Origin: Brevundimonas sp. LM2
GTDB lineage: Bacteria; Pseudomonadota; Alphaproteobacteria; Caulobacterales; Caulobacteraceae
NCBI RefSeq assembly: GCF_002002865.1
Contig: NZ_CP019508.1
Coordinates: 186,001 to 250,000 of the forward strand
Direction: 5' to 3'
Length of the DNA: 64,000 nt
The first letter of the stretch is position 1. Each line of letters begins with the position of its first letter. The notes beneath the pieces are model-generated. The model ran no database searches. It was not told the origin of the DNA and was given only the letters and a program-made list of their open reading frames with translations. Positions 47,382-47,482 of the stretch are shown piece after piece. A program made the position numbers and the translations under genes.

Positions 47382-47482
47382 GGCAGTAGGCAGTAGGCAG
47401 TAGGCAGTAGGATTGAGGGCCAACTGGGCCTGATGTGACGACGATCCCCCTTGCTACTGCCTACTGCCTACTGCCTACTGCC
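47382..47482. repeat. Inverted heptamer array, four GGCAGTA units each side
   Basis: Four perfect GGCAGTA units (47382-47409) start seven bases after the Lon-N stop. After 45 bases come four perfect inverted units TACTGCC (47455-47482), ending three bases before the Trm112 ATG. The two 28-base arms are perfect inverted repeats and could form a long hairpin in DNA or mRNA. Same unit as at 12829-12934; the spacers are not related. Confidence 0.95.

Follow-up and report, generated by a model that had tools for sequence, protein, structure and literature searches.

The pair of heptamer arrays located at 47.4 kb in the window (here, the whole analysed stretch of 64,000 nucleotides of contig NZ_CP019508.1 of Brevundimonas sp. 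LM2) is best explained, with a probability that we put at about 0.78, as an ORF-less (mini) member of a family of IVS/IVP-type elements living between genes. A full element of this family is composed of a G-rich array, often of about 31 nt, a short leader, a PF05635 gene (four-helix-bundle protein) and a C-rich array, and is located at gene junctions. The same unit is found on both arms, the arms have a polarity, and junctions occupied in certain species are empty in their relatives. At one junction, an internally deleted copy and ORF-less pairs are present beside full elements. We infer that the heptamer-armed element is mobile.

The left arm of the window locus (47381..47411, + strand) contains 4.4 copies of AGGCAGT; it is G-rich, with five AGG at a spacing of 7 nt. 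The right arm (47454..47483, +), which contains 4.3 copies of CTACTGC, is perfectly complementary to the left arm, in inverted orientation, along 30 bp: positions 47381-47410 pair with 47454-47483, with 43 nt between them. The original prediction described two 28-base arms separated by 45 bases, which is a count in whole units of these same arms, and the sequence confirms that the inverted heptamer arms are real. The spacer, or loop (47412..47453), has a homologue at the same site in genome G060, where the arms are degenerate. It leaves no room for the ORF of the element: because the 43-nt gap between the arms holds no PF05635 (IVP/S23) gene, the locus was classified as an ORF-less relative. 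It has the features by which we define the proposed family, i.e. convergent period-7 arrays, a common unit and the G-rich arm first. The upstream gene encodes a LON substrate-binding-domain protein (46715..47374, +; PF02190, E 1.2e-28) and the downstream gene a Trm112-like protein (47486..47680, +; PF03966, E 3.6e-16). The stop codon of the former is 6 nt ahead of the left arm, and the ATG of the latter 2 nt past the right arm. The locus is thus between two protein genes and not in a 23S rRNA gene, and a search of the window against Rfam gave no match at gathering score. Starting from an upstream in-frame GTG, translation would run through the right arm and extend the Trm112-like protein at its N-terminus (47435-47485); by eye, an in-frame stop is present in this region in G060.

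Complementary ends forming a stable stem, which characterize the IVSs of 23S rRNA, are present in the form of the 30-bp arms: the predicted RNA fold of the locus has an energy of -73.5 kcal/mol (z = -10.7), and none of 200 shuffled sequences was equally stable. Such a very stable stem might be a host regulatory structure (G-quadruplex, bidirectional terminator or mRNA stabiliser), maintained by selection and not mobile, and related heptamers were found by others to form G-quadruplexes in vitro (PMC4692102). We consider this highly improbable. The T-run of an intrinsic terminator is absent after the stem, which is followed by CCTTGATGAGC; the GG runs in the window arms are just two long; the LON/Trm112 site is empty in several relatives; and the units at one site differ between species.

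The same plan recurs in the window with different units (GGCAGTA and GGGCTTA), as had been predicted. A second ORF-less element has a left arm at 12828..12844 (+, AGGCAGT x2.4) and a right arm at 12905..12936 (+, CCTACTG x4.6). In a third element, the left arm (9713..9743, +, TAGGGCT x4.4, unit GGGCTTA) faces a degenerate right arm (9887..9916, +, CTAAGCC), and an inner C-rich array (9781..9803, +, CTAAGAC x3, unit GGTCTTA) lies within the pair, which possibly corresponds to two nested elements. Five such loci had been announced. Three are clear (about 9.7-9.9 kb, with GGGCTTA outside and GGTCTTA inside, then 12.8 kb and 47.4 kb, both with GGCAGTA); 34.7 kb offers a weak fourth, and a fifth was not found. 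The 34.7 kb candidate is a TRF period-7 array with 69% matches and an inverted match of merely 9 bp, and it gives no lag-7 run at the threshold used. The region 34668-34757 contains a weak, degenerate G-rich/C-rich pair similar to GTGGCTA-type arms.

Period 7 is specifically over-represented in the window. Lag-7 runs with at least 17 matches number 4, versus 0 in one order-3 Markov simulation, and at the looser threshold of at least 11 matches they number 5 versus 2. Periods 8, 10, 11 and 12 gave no run at either threshold, while periods 5, 6 and 9 gave 1, 1 and 3 runs at the looser one. The window is rich in such runs: twelve 20-kb stretches taken at even spacing along this genome yielded a single run with at least 17 matches, and 40 stretches of the genus (791 kb) yielded three.

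In the own genome, the search for GGCAGTAGGCAGTAGG returned 51 places, against 0 for the reversed control, and these cluster into 12 loci. In ten of them the unit is present on both sides in convergent orientation, with differing spacers; of these ten, locus 3553909 carries the variant unit GGCAATA at the mirrored position in both arms, and locus 2862312 runs on into 17 copies of GGCAACA. The eleventh (556255) has a GGGAGTA left arm and a TACTGCC right arm, and the twelfth (2982382) has the unit on one side only. One GGCAGTA pair encloses a spacer of about 400 bp which encodes, on the minus strand, a PF05635 protein (E 4.2e-37), i.e. a 23S rRNA intervening-sequence protein (IVP/S23). In this full element the gene (about G000:C1:1515484-1515861, - strand) is bordered by four GGCAGTA on one side and eight TACTGCC on the other, and the closest solved structure to its product is 2gsc (XCC0516), with E 5.1e-18. 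Loci found by the repeat alone in Bosea and Mesorhizobium gave the same picture, PF05635 genes adjoining the same arrays; the array is on one side of the gene in locus L163 and on both sides in L192 and L206.

The flanks of 108 PF05635 loci were scored at lag 7 with a threshold of at least 9, a scoring which misses degenerate arms, and compared with control windows located 600 bp further out. The genus set consists of the best PF05635 match of 30 of the 52 positive genomes (a profile search found PF05635 in 52 of 101 genus genomes). The phylum set consists of 48 loci not chosen by repeats, one of which (L299) belongs to the genus, and some genomes give several. The other-phyla set comes from genomes chosen for (GGCAGTA)3GG, for which 80 of at least 117 stretches were listed and 47 carried forward. 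Period-7 arrays are present in 42-69% of the PF05635 flanks across the three sets, versus 2-4% of the control windows. They are distributed as follows: 20/30 upstream and 20/29 downstream in the genus (control 1/58), 20/48 and 29/46 in the phylum (control 3/92), and 20/30 and 18/30 in the other phyla (control 2/57), the latter among the matches listed. Other periods are rare around the genes, with counts of 0-3 for periods 4-6 and 9-12 and up to 4/30 for period 8; the largest other-period counts in control windows are 5/58 (period 10) and 4/92 (period 12). In the genus, the flanks of the 30 genes often have such arrays near the ends of the PF05635 ORF, with units including GAGTGGC, GGGAGTA, GGGCTTA, GGCTAGT and GGCAGTA.

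The two arms of a locus clearly match each other. A score of at least 14 was reached between an arm and the inverted form of its own partner in 25/29 (genus), 24/46 (phylum) and 19/30 (other phyla) cases, versus 47/290, 14/460 and 19/300 for mismatched arm pairs. With own arms compared in direct orientation, it was reached in 0/29, 3/46 and 4/30 cases. Among the PF05635 genes with arrays on both sides, a unit common to the two was found for 35 of 50, when shuffling gives 7.0 on average and 14 at most. In the 20 PF05635 loci of unselected Bacteroidota the period-7 signal is weaker (4/20 upstream and 5/19 downstream, control 2/39, with a few cases of period 8). Many of these flanks still carry degenerate inverted arms when inspected by eye. 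In an Rfam search of 20 of the 108 loci, chosen mostly among those lacking clear arms, none was found within rRNA.

The claim that no known element explains the window locus is wrong or at least incomplete: identical arms flank a PF05635 gene in its own genome, period-7 arms are common around PF05635 genes elsewhere, and the rRNA IVS of Coxiella carries heptamers immediately 5' of its S23 ORF (PMC4990558).

Orientation gives a further clue. On the coding strand of PF05635 loci, the upstream array is G-rich in 63 of 68 cases and the downstream array C-rich in 74 of 78. Close array pairs, among the matches listed, are convergent with the G-rich arm first in 39 of 40 cases; none is divergent and one is same-strand. 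Distances within these listed pairs fall into two groups, 43-221 (32 pairs) and 382-458 (7 pairs), and each of the 7 long pairs encloses a PF05635 match.

Part of the arm structure could be produced by plain slippage together with hairpin template switching. Heptamers would be expanded according to the footprint of the polymerase, an idea cited in PMC4692102, quasi-palindrome correction would copy one arm into the other, and IVP genes would merely lie in tolerant junctions. The two arms of a single locus do differ in their number of units (which reaches 8, besides the run of 17 GGCAACA), and the variant mirrored in both arms of locus 3553909 is of the kind that such copying would leave. We nevertheless regard slippage on its own as an unlikely explanation: it does not account for arrays on both sides of PF05635 genes in several phyla, for the polarity (39 convergent versus 0 divergent pairs among the matches listed), or for the presence of an insert at a junction in one species and its absence in another. 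Slippage probably acts on top of an element. The original prediction had favoured a process over a single transposed sequence; the loci rather resemble a family of elements, some full and some ORF-less, in which copying probably takes part.

Co-occurrence at the level of whole genomes is not decisive. Within the genus, PF05635 is present in 20/25 genomes with GGCAGTA arrays versus 32/76 others, and in 27/44 genomes with GAGTGGC arrays versus 25/57 others, the latter showing no clear link; conversely, 5/25 GGCAGTA genomes and 17/44 GAGTGGC genomes have arrays and no PF05635. Across several phyla, 43 of 47 array-bearing genomes carry PF05635 (among the matches listed), and the baseline is 61/80 genomes for Bacteroidota and 52/299 for Pseudomonadota.

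Orthologous junctions were compared between species. The junction between agmatine deiminase and N-carbamoylputrescine amidase could be read in 90 of the 101 genomes. It is empty in 70/90, stop and start overlapping as TGATG in 45 of these 70, and filled by an arm-IVP-arm element in 17/90. The remaining 3/90 (L357, L374 and L397) contain another gene-sized insert. Arms at this junction vary between species (by eye: GAGTGGC, GTGAGTA-like and GTGATTA-like). Close relatives differ: the junction is filled in G016, holds the other insert in G029 (whose amidase is 98% identical) and is empty in G081 (94%). In 6/7 of the GAGTGGC elements examined there, the seventh being unmatched by the pattern, a new ATG overlaps the stop codon of the IVP gene, and the right arm, read in frame, adds N-terminal residues (MTSLATRHS or similar) to the amidase.

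The FliN/tRNA-Leu junction, fetched in 70 of 99 cases and parsed in 53 (in 17 the tRNA or the gene end was unrecognised), contains several forms. All classes except IVP being assigned by eye, we observed full IVP elements in 9/53, one internally deleted copy with a 44-aa IVP remnant between the arms (G018), ORF-less pairs in 5/53 (G098, G019, G002, G009 and G014) and single arms in 2 (G079 and G064). In the remainder, the intergenic region does not exceed 68 nt in 12 cases and measures 98-334 nt in 21 (one consisting mostly of N); the last 3 hold some other sequence of roughly 1 kb. Four of the five ORF-less pairs have units (GAGTGGC, GTGGCTA) that recur on IVP elements within the genus. Of the nine IVPs at this site, seven group in a single clade (support 89/84; the branch is not starred), and the site label requires 3 changes on the IVP tree versus 8.4 for shuffled labels. 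Within this clade both arms of an element are alike, with GGCAGTA, GGCAACA (G021) or GGCAGCA (G046, G071), a variation best read as a concerted change of both arms. To this extent the original prediction of 7-mers copied or expanded in inverted pairs is supported: the two arms seem to change together.

At the LON/Trm112 site itself, the two genes are adjacent in 54 of 70 rows (some genomes being counted twice), and the gap between them never exceeds 143 nt, which could not accommodate an IVP gene. Several species have an empty site, with 7-11 nt from stop to start in L044, L052, L060, L063, L067 and L068 among others, and in further species REP-like hairpins are located there, or pairs of heptamers with different units. 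With gaps of this size, descent of a mini from a full element is seen nowhere at this site, which counts against the element reading. Homology of the spacer is clear for G000-G060 alone (alignment score 50, shuffle maximum 25). Weak similarity was noted for G032-G086 (p 0.004) and G032-G030 (p 0.02), among 21 comparisons; the suggestion that three minis with different units share one spacer at this site was dropped, the G032 matches being weak among so many comparisons. By eye, the LON/Trm112 junctions of L062, L091, L113 and others contain REP-like hairpins of CTCAAGTAGCGCGAAGCGCGATAGCCC type. In L045 and L048, a different inverted pair built on CCCGCGAAAGCGGGGACCCAGT is located at the junction after the LON gene.

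Intergenic inverted pairs with GTAG within the unit are also reminiscent of REP/BIME elements moved by a RAYT (Y1 transposase), and hairpins labelled by eye as REP-like, with GTAG, occupy this very site in other species. The arms, however, are tandem heptamers with a free loop and not a single imperfect palindrome. In a profile search Y1_Tnp was present in 3 of 101 genus genomes and had no match in the own genome. The RAYT/REP reading is therefore strongly disfavoured and retains next to no weight.

We compared the IVS/IVP-type element with other known systems. Short ORF-less IVSs exist in rRNA, as in Salmonella. STRR are intergenic heptamers of cyanobacteria. The closest parallel is the 23S rRNA IVS, which resembles the full form in its PF05635-family gene, its inverted terminal arms able to form a stem and its tandem heptamers (PMC4990558). 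In Coxiella burnetii, the ORF-bearing element of 428 nt has an S23 ORF, a 28-bp stem processed by RNase III and 2-3 heptamers by the ORF, in a number variable between strains (PMC4990558). The window locus differs in being located between protein genes, without ORF, and in having arms which are pure heptamer arrays. The GGGAATC / GGGGAYT heptameric repeats of Xanthomonas and Nostoc are intergenic, with a preference for four units (PMC4692102). Heptameric repeats had been said to be tandem and not normally paired as inverted arms; two Xanthomonas genomes contain 70 and 75 convergent inverted pairs (PMC4692102). In the sense of that article the window locus is a heptameric pair (two close, convergent, intergenic arrays), its unit being GGCAGTA and not GGGAATC. 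STRR and the TAACTGA repeats of Beggiatoaceae are likewise heptameric and intergenic, in distant phyla, but mostly form direct arrays; for TAACTGA, 169 sets and a single indirect repeat in the genome are reported (PMC4679880). MITEs and REP/BIME are comparable as small non-coding inverted-repeat elements located at junctions and possibly needing a protein from elsewhere; they differ from a heptamer-armed family which has no known transposase or conserved terminal sequence and whose arms appear to switch unit in concert.

Paired heptamers in Xanthomonas and heptamers in the Coxiella IVS are thus already published in the texts covered. According to PMC4692102, heptamers are generally not associated with mobile elements and their functional role 'still remains to be elucidated'; the terms 'S23', '23S', 'four helix', 'intervening sequence' and 'XCC0516' are absent from the portion of that text available. 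A literature search, covering few subscription papers, found no paper in which heptamer arms are generally linked to PF05635 genes. The window locus largely matches a described element family, although we did not find the family described in this form. The element reading joins three subjects: heptamers of open role, the PF05635 'four helix bundle' gene and rRNA IVSs of unclear origin (PMC4692102, PMC4990558). Gene-less IVS/IVP relatives may help to explain the seven-letter repeats of many bacteria, and the element reading offers a reason for the occurrence of IVP genes between cas genes (PMC3936711).

Concerning the mechanism, the arms would pair in the transcript, by analogy with rRNA IVSs, into a stem of about 30 bp that RNase III could cut. 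Insertion between co-transcribed genes would be tolerated because the cut merely splits the mRNA. Slippage and arm-to-arm copying likely contribute the variants, through changes of length and mirrored units. TRAP is a protein ring which reads periodic RNA. In the same way, a ring of IVP might read periodic RNA or single-stranded DNA; a five-subunit assembly is stated for IVP Xcc0516 in the source covered. In the weakest step of the scheme, the pentamer would recognise the G-rich array as about five triplets spaced by 7 nt; such a reading would hold the period at 7, favour an arm length near 4x7+3 nt and cause both arms to evolve together.

The IVP is also homologous to bAvd of diversity-generating retroelements (DGR), through weak Pfam matches below cut-off (PMC10053308), which raises the idea of a DGR-like retroelement in which an Avd-related IVP and a reverse transcriptase acting in trans write the heptamers. 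RVT_1, however, is present in 13/52 genomes with IVP and 13/49 others, and the own genome has no RVT_1 match despite its perfect arrays, a difference from bAvd/DGR systems. With RVT_1 unlinked to IVP and missing from the own genome, this reading is unsupported and we hold it to be very unlikely. Profile searches for Y1_Tnp and RVT_1 found no transposase or reverse transcriptase partner of IVP elements.

Arm sizes bear on the ring. At PF05635 loci the commonest arm length is 31 nt (4x7+3), with 23/118 arms, and outside the genus it accounts for 14/83, across 11 units. This peak hints at a pentameric IVP ring that would read triplets at 7-nt intervals. The GG counts (four per arm in 25/101 and five in 20/101) and the own-genome GGCAGTA arrays, which show no clear 31-nt peak (31 nt in 1/20, 30-32 nt in 6/20), do not favour a strict five-site ring. 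A link between IVP protein similarity and heptamer unit is suggestive only, as the sample groups share lineages (Mesorhizobium-like rows are in two of them) and the effect shrinks once near relatives are removed. Between groups, median similarity is 0.531 for the same unit (n=105) versus 0.405 for different units (n=3106); for 14/94 proteins, the closest IVP from another group has the same unit, with 3.0 expected. Restricted to groups not chosen by repeats and to pairs below 60% identity, the medians are 0.569 (n=24) versus 0.409 (n=1322); after dereplication at 60%, the nearest neighbour has the same unit in 3/57 cases, with 0.6 expected. The ring reading was rated lower because of the GG counts per arm and this shrinking protein-unit link. 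That IVP-element arms make up much of the heptameric load of bacteria, the rRNA IVS being a special case, and that a pentameric ring sets the period of 7, is accordingly a tentative proposal which we judge more doubtful than not by a wide measure. The element reading is independent of it. If the ring model were true, the ends of a mobile element would be defined by spacing and not by sequence. A periodic terminal repeat could then swap its letters in concert on both arms, unlike the fixed-sequence end of a transposon. In the broader proposal, IVP elements would represent a previously unrecognised class of mobile element.

Some isolated observations were made along with these analyses. A second, partial PF05635 match is located in the own genome at G000:C1:43119-43370, within a long open frame. 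In L068, GTGATTG/GTGGTTG arms are present 3' of the Trm112-like gene, with two variant units mirrored in the right arm (by eye). In L340 and L353, from two genomes of the phylum, PF05635 genes are apparently located, by eye, between accB-like and accC-like genes; GGGATTC or GGGAATC arrays, of the xanthomonad heptamer type, lie directly upstream of the PF05635 gene, and no matching downstream arm was seen in these two loci. Finally, the IVP elements L313, L322 and L355 have arms of period 8 and not 7.
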